Shown one piece after another: positions 2,842 through 40,735 of a DNA stretch of 64,000 nucleotides. The notes under the pieces were generated by a model. The model worked only from the letters and a program-made list of their open reading frames with translations, ran no database searches and was not told the DNA's origin. The stretch is taken from positions 1 to 64,000 of the forward strand of contig JANWUV010000009.1 of assembly GCA_025057975.1 (NCBI GenBank), in the 5' to 3' direction. Source of the DNA: Chloracidobacterium sp. Lineage in GTDB: Bacteria > Acidobacteriota > Blastocatellia > Chloracidobacteriales > Chloracidobacteriaceae. Position 1 is the first letter of the stretch. Each line of letters starts with the position of its first letter. The translations under genes and the position numbers were made by a program.

Positions 2842-3899
2842 CACGGCGACACCCCCACTTGCCGCAGGCGCGCGCGGCAGGCTTGGCAACGGCGGCGGCC
2901 GGTCCACCAACCGCGCCAATAACCCCGTACGCCGGCCCACTTGACGGCGTACTCGAACCATATGACGCGCGGCCAGACCCACGCGCCGCCGGCCGCCGCA
3001 TAACGCGCCGCCGCTGGTCGCAGTCGCCACAGCCGCGCGCTGACCAGCATAGCGCCGATGACAAATAGTGAGCCGCCTACGAACGGCCACCGCCCCAGCC
3101 ATAACTCGATGAGTCCGATGCTTAGTCCCAGCAGCGGCGCAGCCGTTTCGGCGATGAGCCGGCCGCCAACCAACAGCCCATGCTTGCGCCAGATGTCGGC
3201 TTCGCCCGCGCCGAAAAAGTTGCGCTCGGCTTCGCGGCGGAAGCGCCGAAGCGTCGCCGGCCGCTCCCAGAAACAGCGCGGCGTCGGTGCAGCGGCGACG
3301 CGCTTTGTCGTCGCATGCAGCAAAAGCGCAAACACCATATCGTCAGCCGCCAGCGTCAGGTCTTCTGGGTAGCCGCCTAGCCGCTCCCACAGCGCCTTGC
3401 GATAGGCGATGGCGCGCGACGAAGCATGTGAATCCGGCCGCGCGCGTAGCGCATAGTCGGCGTGAAAAGCGAATTCGACGCGCGCCCAGTCGTCGTCAGG
3501 AAGGTCTTCGCGCCGGACGGCCCAACTCCCCATCACGGCATCCAGCGTCGGATCATCCAGCAGCGGCCGGACCAGGTCTTCAAGCCAGCGGTCGTCCCAC
3601 CGGCAGCCGACATCAGTGGACACAATCACGTCGTAGCGCGCACGCGCAATCGCCAAGTTGCGTCCGCGCGCCACATTGCAGCCGACTTCCTGTGCGACGA
3701 CCAGTTCGTAATCACGGCGCGGGCGGTACTCCTGTAGGAACGCCCACGTCCCGTCGCGCGAGCCGCCGTCCACGATGATGATTTCGCGCGGGCAGAGCGT
3801 CTGCGCTTCCATGGCTGCGAAAAACGCCTGACAACCGGCGAGGTCGTTGAGCACCGTCGTCACCAGCGACACCGGCGCGTAGCGAGCTTCCGTCGTCAT
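2838..3899 (-). CDS. Glycosyltransferase family 2 with C-terminal membrane helices
   Basis: 353 residues. The GT-A nucleotide-binding start is SLVTTVLNDLAGCQAFF, followed by EIIIVDGGSRDGTW and the metal-binding acidic motif in VIVSTDVGCRW near residue 100. A catalytic-region motif SSRAIAYRKALWERLGGYPEDL follows. The last 100 residues hold two or three hydrophobic segments (RLIAETAAPLLGLSIGLIELW and FVGGSLFVIGAML), consistent with membrane attachment. It starts three bases after the preceding gene's stop and overlaps the next gene by GTGA, so it is co-translated in the polysaccharide operon. The sugar transferred is unknown. Confidence 0.85.
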   Translation of the reverse strand: MTTEARYAPVSLVTTVLNDLAGCQAFFAAMEAQTLCPREIIIVDGGSRDGTWAFLQEYRPRRDYELVVAQEVGCNVARGRNLAIARARYDVIVSTDVGCRWDDRWLEDLVRPLLDDPTLDAVMGSWAVRREDLPDDDWARVEFAFHADYALRARPDSHASSRAIAYRKALWERLGGYPEDLTLAADDMVFALLLHATTKRVAAAPTPRCFWERPATLRRFRREAERNFFGAGEADIWRKHGLLVGGRLIAETAAPLLGLSIGLIELWLGRWPFVGGSLFVIGAMLVSARLWRLRPAAARYAAAGGAWVWPRVIWFEYAVKWAGVRGYWRGWWTGRRRCQACRARLRQVGVSPW

Positions 3900-3902
3900 C
3901 CC

Positions 3903-5039
3903 TCAGTCAAGTCGCCGACAAACAGCAACCCACAGCCGCATATTCGCTGCGACATTGCGGAAATAATCCCGGAGTGCCTCGCCCCACAGGAAGCCCTTTT
4001 GCTCACCTGCCCAAGCTTCAATGCGGTCGGCGAGTTCGAGCGCCGCTGCGCCGTAGTCGTCCGTCGGCGACAGCGGCGTTTCGAGCAGCGGCAGCATGTC
4101 GTCCAGCACAACCATCCCGGCCAGTTCGTTCCACAGGTCAACGTAGGGGTTGTGCGGCGTGCGGCGGTGCTCAACCACCGGCGATCCAAGGCGGACGCGA
4201 TGGCCGACCGCCTCGGCGCACATTTGCACAAAGTAGCCGCTGAAAATGTCCCCGAAGCGGTCAAGCTTCAGCCCGGCGAGCGACACGCCCATCTTGACGT
4301 AGTAATACGCCGGCAGCGCCGCCCGGAGAATCGCCGTGTTCTGCGTGTTGATGGGCGAGCGAACGCCGCGCCCCAGCAGGTAGCTCTCCGCAAAAGCTTC
4401 ACTTGCCGCGCAGCGCGTCACAAGGCGCGTCGCAGCGTCCACGTCGGGATCGCCCGACCACAGCCCGGCGTTGACGGCGACGCGCCCGGTTTCGGCTTCA
4501 TCCGTGACGGCGCTGCAATCGAGCGTCCGACGCGGGTAGGGAAAGCCGCGCGGATAGACCGTCTTGCCGCCGCCCAGCGGCGGACACGCGACCGTCATCA
4601 TCGAGCAGATGTTGAACCAGCCGTTGCAGCCGATCGCCACGCGGAGCGTTGCGTCGCGCCCGACGACGGCGTGTTCGCCGAGAAAATCCCAGTCATCTTT
4701 TGGGTAGTTGTCATCGTCAATGCTGATGATGGGGTCGCAGCCGTCGCGGTAGGCCATCAAAAAGCCGACGTTACGCCGGTTGTCGCTGCGCCACGGGATT
4801 TCAGCAGCGAGTTCAGGGAAGTCGGCGAGAAAAGCCCGCTGGTCGTCAGGTGCAAGAAACAGCCACGGCAGTCCGCGTTGGGCGTAGGCGCGCACCCGTT
4901 CAGCACAGGCGTCCGGCGTTGTTAGGTCGCCGACAACGTAAAACCGTACATCCTCAAGGCGGCCGCGCCGCCGGAAGTGCTCGTAGTAAGCGTCAATAAA
5001 CGCGCCGTCGTAAATCGTGGTGACGACGATGCCGAACAT
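3903..5039 (-). CDS. Reversibly-glycosylated-polypeptide-like (RGP/STELLO-type) glycosyltransferase-like protein
   Basis: The start is set at ATG 5039 (MFGIVVTTIYDGAF), because the frame upstream lies inside the previous membrane-protein gene. 378 residues. The recognisable core is NVGFLMAYRDGCDPIISIDDDNYP at about residues 95-120, where the DDDN acidic cluster resembles the DDD/DxD metal site of plant reversibly glycosylated polypeptides and related UDP-sugar binding proteins. Cys-Met-rich GCNGWFNICSMM follows. No signal peptide or membrane helix is seen. In a glycan operon it may be a transferase or a UDP-sugar mutase-like protein. The family assignment is moderate and the reaction is unproven. 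Confidence 0.55.
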   Translation of the reverse strand: MFGIVVTTIYDGAFIDAYYEHFRRRGRLEDVRFYVVGDLTTPDACAERVRAYAQRGLPWLFLAPDDQRAFLADFPELAAEIPWRSDNRRNVGFLMAYRDGCDPIISIDDDNYPKDDWDFLGEHAVVGRDATLRVAIGCNGWFNICSMMTVACPPLGGGKTVYPRGFPYPRRTLDCSAVTDEAETGRVAVNAGLWSGDPDVDAATRLVTRCAASEAFAESYLLGRGVRSPINTQNTAILRAALPAYYYVKMGVSLAGLKLDRFGDIFSGYFVQMCAEAVGHRVRLGSPVVEHRRTPHNPYVDLWNELAGMVVLDDMLPLLETPLSPTDDYGAAALELADRIEAWAGEQKGFLWGEALRDYFRNVAANMRLWVAVCRRLD

Positions 5040-33110: not shown

Positions 33111-35507
33111 ATGCATACCGCTGTTATTCTCGAAAAGGTCTCCCCGTCTGTTGAACGCCGGGTGATTGTCAAACGCGACGGGCGTACGGTGGGCTGGGAC
33201 CCGGAGCGCATCGTCCGCGCGATTTCGTTGGCTTTCTACGCCGTTCGGCACAACAACGCGCCCAACCCCTTCAGCAACGACCGTGAAGCCCGCTACGGCC
33301 TGAGCGAAGAAGACCATGCCGAAGTGCTCCGCATCACGAACATGGTCATCAACAACGTTGATCTGCGCTTCCACCGGGGCGAAAACCCCACTGTCGAACA
33401 GGTGCAAGACATCGTTGAGATGATGATTGCCGGCGCTGGTCATTTCGACGTAGCGAAAAGCTACGTGCTCTATCGGGCAAAGAAAGCCGAAGCGCGTATC
33501 CACAAGCATGTGGAGAACGGTCTCGCCGATTACATCGCCGTCAGCCGGTACACCCGTTACCGCGAAGATTTGGGACGACGTGAACTGTGGCCGGAAGCCG
33601 TTGCGCGCGTCTTCGAGATGCACCGAGCGCATTTTCGCGCTGTCCTCGACCGTTCCGTCCCCGAACTTGGGCTCACCGTCGGTGAGCTGATTGATCAGGC
33701 CGAGCGGGATGTCCGCGACCGCCGGGCGCTACCTTCAATGCGTTCGCTGCAGTTCGGCGGCAAGGCCATTGAGGTTAATCACGCCCGGATGTACAATTGC
33801 TGCTTCGGCCACATTGACCACCCCCGTAAGTTCGCCGAAGCGACGTGGCTCCTGTTGTCAGGAACGGGTGTCGGATTTTCCGTTCAGAAACACCACGTCG
33901 CTAAGCTGCCGCCGCTCCCCCTGCGGAAAAGCATCGACGAGCTGCCGGTGGTTCACTTCACGATTCCCGATAGTATTGAAGGCTGGGCGGATGCGGTGGA
34001 TCAGCTCATCCACAGTTACTATGCGGGTGTCTATGTTGAGTTCAACTACTCGCAGATTCGACCGAAAGGCAGCCTGCTACGCACGTCGGGCGGACGCGCG
34101 CCGGGACATCTCCCGCTCAAGCGGGCGTTGGAAGCCATGCGCGGCGTGTTGGATCGGGCGGTAGGCCGGAAGCTCAAGCCAATCGAGGCGTACGACATTT
34201 TGATGTACGCCGCGAGCGCCGTCATTTCGGGCGGCGTCCGCCGCAGCGCCACCATCGCGCTGTTCAGCGCCGACGACGAGGAAATGACCAACGCCAAGAC
34301 CGGTGATTGGTTTGTCGCTCATCCGCAGCGGCAGTTTTCCAACAACAGTGCTGTCCTTGTCCGCCGCGAGGCTTCCCGCGAGCAGTTCCAAGCCTTGTTC
34401 AACGCTGTCAAACAGTTCGGCGAACCCGGTTTCTACTTCACCGAGAACACGGAGTATGGCGCCAACCCGTGTGTTGAGATTGGTCTCATGCCGGTGATGA
34501 CGGTGGACGAGCCGACCCTGGCCAAACTCCGGGCGCTGGGCTACGACCAACCGCTAAAAGTCGGCGATACCGTTTCGGGCTGGCAGCACTGCAACCTCTC
34601 CACCATCAACGGCCGCGCGTGCCGAACCCCGGAAGACTTCTACGCGCTGTGTCGCACGGCCGCGGTCATCGGGACGTTGCAGGCGGCGTACACCGACATG
34701 CCCTACTTAGGGCCTGTGACGCGCGTCATCAACGAACGTGAAGCGCTGCTTGGCGTCTCGATTTGCGGCGTCATGGACAACCCCACCGTCCTGCTCGACC
34801 CGGCCGTTCTGCGGCGCGGCGCGGACATCGCCAAGGCGACGAATGCGGCGCTGGCGAAGGTCATCGGCATCAATCGCGCCGCGCGCGTCACCTGCGTCAA
34901 GCCGGAAGGGACGGCGTCGCTGCTGCTGGGTACGGCGAGCGGCATCCATCCTCACCATGCCAAACGCTATTTCCGGCGCGTCCAAGCCGCACGCACCGAG
35001 GTGGTTTACCAGTTCTTCCGCCGGTACAACCCGCACATGACCGAGGTGTACGGCATGAAGGCGGACACCACCGACGTGATCACGTTCCCCGTTGAAGCGC
35101 CCGAAGGCGCGATCACGAAGAAAGACCTCAGCGCGACGAAGTTTTTGGAGATTGTGAAGCTGGTGCAGGAAAACTGGGTCAAGCCCGGTACGGCGCACGA
35201 GGACTACAATCCGGGGCTGTACCACAACGTCTCGAACACGGTCGTCGTCCGGCCGCATGAGTGGGACGCCGTCGCGGACTACATCTGGGAAAACCGCGAT
35301 TATTTCACCGGCATTTCGATTCTGCCCGCCAGCGGCGACAAGGATTACCCGCAAGCGCCGCTTGAAGAAGTGACGACGCCGCAGGACATCGCGCGCTGGA
35401 ACGCCCTGAAGTACAACCCGGTGGACTATGCCGCGCTCAACGAGGCGGCGGACTACACCAGTTTCAGGGATGTCGTCGCGTGCGCCGGTGGGCGGTGCGA
35501 CATCTGA
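33111..35507 (+). CDS. nrdJ: Adenosylcobalamin-dependent ribonucleoside-triphosphate reductase (class II)
   Basis: 798 residues. An N-terminal ATP-cone (about 15-130, RRVIVKRDGRTVGWDPERIVRAI) precedes the barrel. Catalytic features are visible: Cys230/231 in YNCCFGHID, the N452-C454-E456 triad in GANPCVEIGLMP with thiyl Cys454, the second redox cysteine in SGWQHCNLSTING, and the C-terminal relay pair Cys791/Cys796 in CAGGRCDI. Sequence style (GGVRRSATIALFS and TCVKPEGTASLLLG) matches the RTPR-like class II group. It makes deoxynucleotides independently of oxygen using B12. A GGA-type ribosome site precedes ATG 33111, and NrdR boxes lie upstream. Confidence 0.93.
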   Translation: MHTAVILEKVSPSVERRVIVKRDGRTVGWDPERIVRAISLAFYAVRHNNAPNPFSNDREARYGLSEEDHAEVLRITNMVINNVDLRFHRGENPTVEQVQDIVEMMIAGAGHFDVAKSYVLYRAKKAEARIHKHVENGLADYIAVSRYTRYREDLGRRELWPEAVARVFEMHRAHFRAVLDRSVPELGLTVGELIDQAERDVRDRRALPSMRSLQFGGKAIEVNHARMYNCCFGHIDHPRKFAEATWLLLSGTGVGFSVQKHHVAKLPPLPLRKSIDELPVVHFTIPDSIEGWADAVDQLIHSYYAGVYVEFNYSQIRPKGSLLRTSGGRAPGHLPLKRALEAMRGVLDRAVGRKLKPIEAYDILMYAASAVISGGVRRSATIALFSADDEEMTNAKTGDWFVAHPQRQFSNNSAVLVRREASREQFQALFNAVKQFGEPGFYFTENTEYGANPCVEIGLMPVMTVDEPTLAKLRALGYDQPLKVGDTVSGWQHCNLSTINGRACRTPEDFYALCRTAAVIGTLQAAYTDMPYLGPVTRVINEREALLGVSICGVMDNPTVLLDPAVLRRGADIAKATNAALAKVIGINRAARVTCVKPEGTASLLLGTASGIHPHHAKRYFRRVQAARTEVVYQFFRRYNPHMTEVYGMKADTTDVITFPVEAPEGAITKKDLSATKFLEIVKLVQENWVKPGTAHEDYNPGLYHNVSNTVVVRPHEWDAVADYIWENRDYFTGISILPASGDKDYPQAPLEEVTTPQDIARWNALKYNPVDYAALNEAADYTSFRDVVACAGGRCDI

Positions 35508-35529
35508 GCCGGGCACTGCGACGCCTGCC

Positions 35530-36507
35530 ATGGACGACCCCGCCGTTGCAAACTTGGTCGCCGATTGGCTCGCTGGCCGCCAGCTGGCGGACGCCGAAGC
35601 CGACGCCCTGCTGGCCCGTTTGACGCCCGACGCCGCAACCTATGAGCAGTTCACGGCGCTGATTGCGGCCGTCGCGTCCACCGCCGTCCCGCCGCCGGCC
35701 GTGGACGGCGACATTCTGGATTGCTGCGGGACGGGCGGCGGTGGGCGTCCGCGTTTCAACGTCTCCACGACGGTCGCTTTCGTCCTGTCCGCTGGCGGCG
35801 TGCGGGTTGTGAAGTTCGGCAATCGCGCCGCCACGAGCGCAAGTGGGAGTTTTGATCTGCTCGAACGATTGGGCGTGCCGGTCGAGTACCCGTTGGAACA
35901 GCTGCCCGCCTTACTGGAAGCGACGAATCTGGCGTTTCTCTATGCGCCGCAGTGCTACCCGGCGCTCAAGGCAGCGGCGGCGGCGCGACGACGGTTCGGG
36001 CGACCGACGCTTTTCAACTACATTGGGCCGCTGCTGCATCCGCTGCGACCGACGCGCCGGCTGGTCGGCGTCTCGCATCCGCGCATGCAGGCGTTTACGG
36101 CGCAGTGGTTGGCGAATGATGGGCGGACGCAGCGCGCGTTGGTCGTGCGCGGCGAGGGGGACTGTGATGAACTCACGCCGCTGGGAACGTCCGTCATCTA
36201 CGATGTCGCGCCGCAGTGCGTCAGGAAGTGTCCGTGGGCGTCCGAAGAGGCGCTTGAGCCGGTGATGGAAGACATCCCAACCGGCGCGCCGGAAGCCAAC
36301 CTGACGCTGTTCCGGCGGATTGTGGCGGGCGTGGATACCACTTCGACGGCTTACCATAGCGTTCGGCTCAATGCCGGGCTGGGCTTTGTCGCCGCCGGAC
36401 GGGCGGCGACCTTGGCGGAAGGGGCGGCGCTGGCCGCCGACTTGCTGGCGAGCGGGATTGTCCGGCGACAGGTCGAAACGTTTCTGGCGTACCTGCGTGA
36501 CGCCTAA
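35530..36507 (+). CDS. trpD: Anthranilate phosphoribosyltransferase (TrpD)
   Basis: Start ATG 35530 (MDDPAVANLVADWLAGRQL), 22 bases after nrdJ; longer starts overlap nrdJ. 325 residues. The PRPP-binding GTGGGGRPRFNVSTTVAFVL and VVKFGNRAATSASGSFDLLERLG motifs and the anthranilate-site PTLFNYIGPLLHPLRP block are present. Residues differ from the common versions (KHGNRxxSSxxG, NLLGPLxNP), so it is a divergent member, and a TrpD2-like paralogue cannot be fully excluded. It transfers phosphoribose to anthranilate, step two of tryptophan synthesis. It is convergent with trpG across only 10 bases, with trpE beyond. Confidence 0.86.
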   Translation: MDDPAVANLVADWLAGRQLADAEADALLARLTPDAATYEQFTALIAAVASTAVPPPAVDGDILDCCGTGGGGRPRFNVSTTVAFVLSAGGVRVVKFGNRAATSASGSFDLLERLGVPVEYPLEQLPALLEATNLAFLYAPQCYPALKAAAAARRRFGRPTLFNYIGPLLHPLRPTRRLVGVSHPRMQAFTAQWLANDGRTQRALVVRGEGDCDELTPLGTSVIYDVAPQCVRKCPWASEEALEPVMEDIPTGAPEANLTLFRRIVAGVDTTSTAYHSVRLNAGLGFVAAGRAATLAEGAALAADLLASGIVRRQVETFLAYLRDA

Positions 36508-39469: not shown

Positions 39470-39512
39470 AAAAGCAAAACCGCCGACCTCCCAGCTTGGG
39501 AAGGTCGGCGGC
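39470..39512 (-). terminator. Intrinsic terminator of the aro/trp attenuator
   Basis: On the transcript (minus strand) the arms GCCGCCGACCT and AGGTCGGCGG, extended by CCC/GGG across a one-base bulge, enclose a short loop. They are followed at once by TTTTGCTTTT (39479-39470). It ends 32 bases before the aroF start. The terminator's 5' arm contains CCTTCCC, complementary to GGGAAGG inside the leader ORF (39584-39578), a possible antiterminator partner. Confidence 0.85.
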
Positions 39513-39539
39513 TCTGAAGAAAGCTGGCGGAGCGTTGGT

Positions 39540-39638
39540 TTAGTCGTCAATCGCGCGCGCCGGCCGGCCGGCCGAAGCCTTCCCGATGAGGCTCCACCAG
39601 TACCAATAGCCGCTAAACGTAAAGTTGCGCGCGTGCAT
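39540..39638 (-). CDS. Aromatic/tryptophan leader peptide (attenuator ORF)
   Basis: A 32-codon ORF from ATG 39638 to TAA 39540, ending 28 bases before the terminator hairpin. It encodes Phe at codons 6 and 8, then Tyr-Trp-Tyr-Trp-Trp at codons 11-15, an extreme concentration of aromatic residues in a short peptide. Next comes a very GC-rich stretch (GGCCGGCC repeats) able to fold on itself. The layout of leader ORF, strong hairpin, U-run, then aroF-trpE-trpG is the classical ribosome-mediated attenuator. Scarcity of charged tRNA-Trp (perhaps also Tyr or Phe) would stall the ribosome and favour an alternative fold that lets polymerase through. Confidence 0.85.
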   Translation of the reverse strand: MHARNFTFSGYWYWWSLIGKASAGRPARAIDD

Positions 39639-39700
39639 ACAAGAACGAGAAACGAATAAGTTGTGGTGACCTTAGCGTTTCGGACGCTCGGACGCAAGCC

Positions 39701-40735
39701 CTATGTGAGGCCGAGGGCGTCGCGCGTCGCCTGATAGACCATTTCCGGCGTCAGTCCGGTCATACAGCGGTGGTCAATCGGGCAGTCCTTGAGCAGGCAG
39801 GGCGCACATGGAACAAGCCGCCGGATGATCCGGGCTGTCGGCGAGAAGGGTGAAATCTGGTTGGGATCGGTTGGGCCGAAGATTGTCACCAACGGACGAT
39901 CCAGCGCCGCCGCGACGTAGGCCGGACCCGTATCGTTGCTAACGACGACGGCGCAGCGGGACAGCAGCGCCACGCTTTCACGCAAGGCGAGTTCGCCGGC
40001 CAAGACGACGGCGCGTTCGGGACGGCGCATGGCGCTGCGGATGGCGTCGCACAACGGGCGTTCGTTGGAAGCACCGAGGAGAAACAGTTGCAGGTCGGGG
40101 TGGTCGGCCAGTCGGTCGAGGAGCGCCGTAAACGACGCGGGCGGCCACTGCTTGGCGCGGCTGTTGGCGGCACCGGGGACGACGGCGACGGGGCGGCCGT
40201 TTCGCCCTACGTTTGGCAGCTTGGCGTCGAGCGCGGCGTAGGCGGACGGTGCGACCGGCAGCCGGTAGTCAAGCGATGCGTAGTTGACCTGCGTCGCGCC
40301 GGTCAGCCGTGTCTCCAACTGCGCAACAAGGTCGAGGTAGTAGTAGATCTGGTGTTTGCGTCGCGTCGCCGCCGTGACGGGGAAGGCGTCGGTGAGGAGG
40401 ACGCCGCGCGCTTCGGTGGCGAAGCCGATGCGGCGCGGGATGCGTGCGGCGAACGTCATCGCGGCGGCTTCAAAGGCGTTTTGGAAAAGAACGGCCGCGT
40501 CAAAGCGGCCGGCGCGCAGTTTGGCGACGCCGGAGAGGAAGGACGCCTGTCGGTTGTCGTACGGCAGCAGGTCGTCGGCCAGCGGCGTATCGGCGAAGAG
40601 GTCGGCGACCCATGGGCGTACCATGAGCGTCAGATGCGCGTTGGGGAAGAGGCGGCGCAGTTCGCGCAGCGCGGGCAAGGTCATCATGCTGTCGCCGACC
40701 CAGTTGACGCCGCGCACCAACAGCCGGTGAATCAT
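39701..40735 (-). CDS. Lipopolysaccharide heptosyltransferase (GT9, WaaF-like)
   Basis: The start is set at ATG 40735 (MIHRLLVRGVNWVGDSMMTLPAL). 344 residues. The GT9 hallmarks are RGVNWVGDSMMTLPALRELRRLFPNA, PRRIGFATEARGVLLTDAFP, VVPGAANSRAKQWPPASFTALLDRL, VVSNDTGPAYVAAALDRPLVTIFGPTDPNQISPF, and a late cysteine cluster VPCAPCLLKDCPIDHRCM. WaaF/heptosyltransferase II proteins add heptose from ADP-heptose to inner-core lipopolysaccharide at the cytoplasmic membrane face. It lies just upstream of the attenuator leader on the same strand, but function is unrelated to aro/trp. No other LPS core gene is adjacent. Confidence 0.88.
   Translation of the reverse strand: MIHRLLVRGVNWVGDSMMTLPALRELRRLFPNAHLTLMVRPWVADLFADTPLADDLLPYDNRQASFLSGVAKLRAGRFDAAVLFQNAFEAAAMTFAARIPRRIGFATEARGVLLTDAFPVTAATRRKHQIYYYLDLVAQLETRLTGATQVNYASLDYRLPVAPSAYAALDAKLPNVGRNGRPVAVVPGAANSRAKQWPPASFTALLDRLADHPDLQLFLLGASNERPLCDAIRSAMRRPERAVVLAGELALRESVALLSRCAVVVSNDTGPAYVAAALDRPLVTIFGPTDPNQISPFSPTARIIRRLVPCAPCLLKDCPIDHRCMTGLTPEMVYQATRDALGLT

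Follow-up and report, generated by a model that had tools for sequence, protein, structure and literature searches.

The window, which is the whole 64,000-nucleotide stretch of Chloracidobacterium DNA under analysis, carries on its minus strand the 3′ end of a heptosyltransferase-like gene (stop codon at 39701), followed by a short open reading frame (ORF) with an aromatic codon cluster, a hairpin with a T tract, and then aroF, trpE and trpG (Table 1). The ORF had been described in the original prediction as a 32-codon leader with Phe6 and Phe8 upstream of the cluster Tyr11-Trp12-Tyr13-Trp14-Trp15, and both its coordinates and its residues are correct. In a six-frame translation of the window, five consecutive aromatic residues occur only once, as YWYWW (0.1 expected from mononucleotide shuffles), and the leader RNA folds better than shuffled sequence (z −2.4). 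The aroF and trpE genes overlap by 4 bases and trpE is separated from trpG by 26 bases, so the three genes very likely form a single transcript. The AroF protein is 91–92% identical to Chloracidobacterium MAG records. The N-terminal part of the PRK08673 family that is missing from it is a regulatory domain in relatives. Since AroF is devoid of this domain, control of its expression may outweigh feedback inhibition.

Table 1. Features of the aroF-trpE-trpG locus and the second DAHP synthase of the same genome.
Feature	Position	Strand	Remarks
Candidate promoter TTGCGT-N17-TAAGGT	39669-39697	minus	Putative; just past the stop codon of the upstream gene
Leader peptide ORF MHARNFTFSGYWYWWSLIGKASAGRPARAIDD, 32 codons	39638-39540	minus	Tyr11-Trp12-Tyr13-Trp14-Trp15
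Segment 1 (protector) GGTGGAGCCT	39598-39589	minus	Codons 14-17; predicted partner 39580-39570 in segment 2; centroid, individual and consensus folds
Segment 2 (antiterminator strand) GGGAAGGCTTCGGCCGG	39584-39568	minus	Codons 19-24; predicted from stall-constrained folding and synonymous-codon control
Segment 3, terminator 5′ arm GCCGCCGACCTTCCC	39512-39498	minus	Individual and consensus folds
Intrinsic terminator with T tract	39516-39470	minus	Present in all 9 leader-bearing family members
aroF, type I-beta DAHP synthase without N-terminal regulatory domain	39437-38607	minus	PRK08673/TIGR01361; match from PRK08673 model position 72
trpE, anthranilate synthase component I	38610-37135	minus	NCBIfam/Pfam
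trpG, anthranilate synthase component II	37108-36518	minus	NCBIfam/Pfam
Second DAHP synthase of the window's genome	L112 (G000:C1:73698-74579)		Type I-alpha, TIGR00034

A sequence scan ahead of the window leader yielded no consensus promoter site, and the candidate listed in Table 1 is weak when taken alone. Similar promoter-like sites are found at the same position across the genus. Ahead of the leaders of G007 and G009 (two further genera of the family) and G055 (another family of the same class), the corresponding sites read TTGACA-N17-TAAGGT, TTGACA-N18-TATATC and TTGACA-N18-TATAAC, respectively. No Shine-Dalgarno sequence is evident in the region directly ahead of the leader ORF (39639–39660), and a pyrimidine-rich stretch lies there, ahead of the start codon, across the genus. 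The terminator stem (39516–39475) is composed of 18 pairs, and its T-rich tail reaches 39470. The predicted spacings of 28 bases between ORF and terminator and 32 bases between terminator and aroF were reproduced on remeasuring: the leader stop codon lies ∼27–28 bases from the G+C core of the stem (23 from the outermost pair), and 32 bases separate the end of the T tract from the aroF ATG (39437). An additional hairpin (39526–39561), which spans the leader stop codon and is kept in the genus, one of its pairs showing a compensatory change, is perhaps a pause site or barrier.

Within the ORF, the sequence GGGAAGG (39584–39578) is complementary to CCTTCCC (39504–39498) in the 5′ arm of the terminator. 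In ribosome-free folds, segment 2 is masked by the Trp-codon segment through the GGTGGAGCCT:AGGCTTCGGCC hairpin, and GGGAAGG together with the following CTTCGGCCGG is likely the antiterminator strand. The original prediction had suspected the GGGAAGG:CCTTCCC pairing but left the true antiterminator open; this is now largely answered, as segment 2 starts at GGGAAGG and the Trp codons mask it when no ribosome is present. The contiguous GGGAAGG:CCTTCCC match in the window is within chance for G+C-rich sequence (p 0.59 in shuffles, 6 bp counted). A test for contiguous complements combined over 74 leaders gave p 9e-17, a value that overstates the case because these leaders are related sequences. 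As the short match in the window is unremarkable, the case depends on the whole leader set.

The dependence of this pairing on the position of a stalled ribosome was analyzed with two folding models. In the first, only the ribosome-free RNA up to the end of the terminator 5′ arm was folded; pairing between arm and leader was 0.84–0.99 for stalls at codons 12–15 across the genus and fell right after codon 15. In the second, RNA on either side of the ribosome could pair and the footprint was varied. The peak was located at codons 13–14 in G000 (the genome of the window), G002, G003 and G004, at codons 12–14 in G006 and, within the cluster, at codon 14 in G001. Stalls near codons 5–9 scored high as well in G000, G006 and G001 (codon 7), and not in other genus members. 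The effect of stalling was weaker in G007, and the expected peak was absent in G055 under the second model. Stalled-ribosome folding had been put forward as a check with the original prediction, and in the genus, pairing of the terminator 5′ arm proves strongest for stalls near Trp14. When no ribosome was modeled, the arm pairing was still 0.79 in the window species, which may therefore have a high basal read-through; the other family members tested gave 0.20–0.47. As a control, each leader was subjected to 200 random synonymous recodings, and those reaching the observed arm pairing were counted. This level was reached by 1/200 recodings for the window, 2/200 for G004 and 3/200 for G001; the outcome was less clear for G003 (8/200), G009 (16/200), G006 (18/200) and G002 (26/200), and G007 did not pass (113/200).

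The leader ORF and terminator precede aroF in all seven genomes of the genus and also in G007 and G009, so the Trp/Tyr cluster and hairpin are kept in the relatives with which a comparison had been proposed. Altogether the leader was found in nine of the 10 family genomes searched, and a weaker match was obtained in G055; the tenth family genome (G008) is a fragmented assembly and yielded no close aroF. In the genus leaders, Phe6, Phe8, Tyr11, Trp12 and Trp14 are invariant, Tyr13 is replaced by His in one genome and Trp15 by Arg in two. Three clustered Trp codons with Tyr are present in all leaders, including that of G055, except for two genus members with only two Trp. The leader peptides of G007 (MSMTFSVAQKWQYKAWWIRTNGLPRLCTQLKR) and G009 (MNTQFFTAQYWWYYWFSPPVACPIVST), each with its own terminator, are strongly diverged and share little with the genus beyond the aromatic cluster (MSMTFSVAQKWQYKAWWIRTNG.. 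and MNTQFFTAQYWWYYWFSPP..). The G055 leader MTTTNYNSRTINAAWYWWSVNVGGCVVWREM (MTTTNYNSRTINAAWYWWSVN..) also heads aroF-trpE-trpG. A covariance model built from the nine family leaders recovers all nine and, weakly, G055 (E 1e-6). Two matches of covariance model R3, in G037 and G022, were rejected because the terminators there have no accompanying aromatic ORF. Segment 2 differs between genera in step with the terminator arm, GGGAAGG:CCTTCCC of the genus being replaced by GGCCTGC:GCAGGCC in G007 and G009; judged from these sequences, the predicted pairing is maintained across genera while the sequence changes. Covariation inside the genus is thin, with one pair changed on both sides in the consensus fold. 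The trpE gene follows aroF in every genus genome whose contig continues. In G007, G009 and G055, trpE and trpG come next after aroF and are succeeded, judging by translated starts, by apparent further trp genes; the genus has a shorter unit, and in the window trpD lies convergent to it (35428–36507).

We conclude with considerable confidence that the window element is a classical ribosome-mediated transcription attenuator of aroF-trpE-trpG, and the proposal of such combined control is well supported by comparison and folding. Clustered codons for amino acids of the pathway lie in a short ORF (Y-W-Y-W-W, with at least three Trp also in G007, G009 and G055), an intrinsic terminator is located between this ORF and the first structural gene, the structural genes aroF, trpE and trpG all serve that pathway, and folding favors the antiterminator at control-codon stalls in the window and the genus, more weakly in G007 and not in G055. 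RNA polymerase would start just ahead of the leader ORF. With ample charged tRNA-Trp, and possibly tRNA-Tyr, the translating ribosome would clear codons 11–15, segment 1 would pair with its partner in segment 2, and segment 3 would be left free, so that the terminator would form and aroF-trpE-trpG would not be transcribed. With Trp in short supply, the ribosome would halt at codons 12–15 and cover segment 1; segment 2 would then pair with the terminator 5′ arm, and the polymerase would continue into aroF-trpE-trpG. Most likely, then, the modeled switch would turn on the first aromatic step and the tryptophan branch upon Trp shortage.

The hairpin could in principle do no more than terminate the heptosyltransferase-like gene, which has the same orientation and whose end lies ∼185 bases ahead of the stem, with an accidental ORF that is preceded by no Shine-Dalgarno sequence. 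This we regard as extremely improbable, since the aromatic cluster and its site before the antiterminator strand are kept in three genera whose peptides have diverged, the stretch separating the leader from the upstream gene has promoter-like sites, and the five-aromatic run is unique in the window. T-box elements, riboswitches, TRAP-like proteins and TnaC-like arrest peptides that sense free Trp control Trp genes in other bacteria. Such a mechanism is nevertheless very unlikely here: the region has no convincing match to any Rfam family even at a low threshold, the conserved part is a run of Trp codons just before the antiterminator strand, as stalling at hungry codons requires, and the peptide outside the cluster is unconserved between genera, unlike an arrest peptide. 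The region is likewise unmatched by the Rfam Trp_leader family at the gathering threshold and up to E 10.

Within the attenuation mechanism, our best reading is that mainly Trp is sensed, with Tyr possible and Phe unlikely. The broader proposal that all three amino acids are sensed stands for Trp, which is present in every relative and at the folding peak, and in part for Tyr, which lies in the cluster, but it is unlikely for Phe, whose codons are located farther upstream and vary between genera. A sensor that would respond equally when any of the three aromatic amino acids is scarce, and so gate the chorismate supply for all three, seems doubtful to us. Phe6, Phe8, Tyr11 and Tyr13 do accompany the three Trp codons, Tyr is found within the cluster in nearly all relatives, Tyr13 stalls antiterminate about as much as Trp stalls in the folding of several genomes, and DAHP synthase leaders elsewhere mix all three aromatics. 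However, stalls at Phe6/Phe8 reach only 0.2–0.6 in G001, G002, G003 and G004 (0.78–0.98 in G000 and G006), and Phe is missing from the G055 leader and lies outside the cluster in G007. In Corynebacterium glutamicum, the aroR leader with Phe-Tyr-Phe precedes aroF and responds to Phe according to the account of Neshat 2014 given in PMC11802643, and Tyr availability has no effect despite the Tyr codon (PMC11802643), so the presence of a codon alone is no proof of sensing. Regulation of all chorismate supply is further disfavored by the second DAHP synthase (Table 1). No comparable leader was found at the loci of this enzyme, trpB or pheA in the genome of the window, and the aroF leader therefore does not govern all entry into the pathway. 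The idea of one leader for aromatic entry and the tryptophan branch thus fits the operon structure but is limited by this second, leaderless enzyme.

Attenuation by leader peptides is already known for trp operons and for a DAHP synthase operon. Like the Escherichia coli trpL attenuator and the actinobacterial trp attenuators (PMC1262725), the window element combines a short ORF containing Trp codons with pairings that exclude one another and an intrinsic terminator ahead of trp genes; unlike them, it has a DAHP synthase as the first gene, Tyr alternating with Trp, and an antiterminator strand that is part of the ORF instead of following it. Like C. glutamicum aroR, it is an aromatic-codon leader that would act on a DAHP synthase operon by ribosome-mediated attenuation. 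It differs in that Trp dominates the leader and trpE-trpG share the operon, whereas C. glutamicum trpEGDCFBA has a separate leader of its own. The window leader also falls outside an aroR type defined by Phe/Tyr control codons, as its cluster is Trp/Tyr and Phe lies outside. The uORFC-13-1 motif before aroF in Acholeplasma, reported with Phe codon(s) and with no trp genes mentioned (PMC8632094), is similar in its uORF and terminator ahead of aroF, and differs in phylum and codons.

Among 107 type I-beta aroF loci, which were picked as close relatives of the window AroF and are not a random sample, 51 have an aromatic leader with a terminator upstream. The background was 39 matches among 445 control genes, ∼27 of which were aroF genes; this leaves about a dozen among ∼420, mostly with scattered aromatics, and the comparison with 51/107 is a rough one. 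Some score-6 matches upstream of aroF (L016 at −491, L036 and L081) look accidental. Most sampled cyanobacterial aroF loci have two leaders in series, ∼340 bases (e.g. MFATNSYFYFWYGQVRPE) and ∼180 bases (e.g. MTLFSNWYYGFYFWPRRSSG) upstream. Each has its own terminator, as seen in L006–L031 (e.g. L010, ∼3660–3945). The antiterminator helix of the first leader has 5 pairs changed on both sides (22 cells, 92.8% of cells paired), with a covariation score matched by 0/500 shuffles, and that of the second has 2 such pairs (6 cells). Under strict filters, the first-leader model matches 20 of 146 cyanobacterial genomes, so at that sensitivity this leader is far from universal. Single leaders were found at Acidobacteriaceae, Peregrinibacteria and Desulfobacterales aroF loci. 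A Phe-rich leader (..YDFGRFFFSFRSVRPVA) with a terminator is located ∼470–700 bases upstream of the aroF match in L056, L061, L066, L069 and L071 (Desulfobacterales/Deltaproteobacteria MAGs). In L093, MNEAQPRMKHSMNYRSYIALNDEAGCWQAFYFSFSSPKERVAR and a terminator lie upstream of a gene at ∼403 that is prephenate-dehydratase-like (weak match, first 25 residues).

The leaders of cyanobacterial and other type I-beta aroF genes (L006–L031, L040–L047 and L056–L071) resemble that of the window in their aromatic-rich ORF, an antiterminator strand directly after the cluster and a terminator before aroF. In contrast to the window leader, they are Phe/Tyr-rich, occur in tandem in cyanobacteria and, where flanks were tested, are not accompanied by trpE. 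The leaders richest in Trp are those of aroF genes with trpE behind them (mean 2.75 W), and the cyanobacterial clusters are rich in Phe and Tyr. On balance, we lean towards the view that control of type I-beta DAHP synthases by aromatic leaders is ancient and widespread, spanning several phyla (Acidobacteriota, Cyanobacteria, Desulfobacterales and candidate phyla), with a codon mix that tracks the operon, Trp-rich with trpE-trpG and otherwise mixed or Phe-rich, and that the tandem cyanobacterial pair may be a two-step gate on aromatic entry.

A search of the open-access literature, beyond which earlier reports are possible, did not return a combined aroF-trpE-trpG operon headed by a single Trp/Tyr leader, conservation of such an arrangement in Acidobacteriota or the tandem cyanobacterial leaders. 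In summary, a device of classical type appears here to be conserved in a little-explored phylum and to have tandem relatives in cyanobacteria. A 2016 paper stated that there were no reliable data on attenuation in cyanobacteria (PMC4833913), and it is in this group that tandem attenuators of the leader-peptide type are suggested by our comparison.
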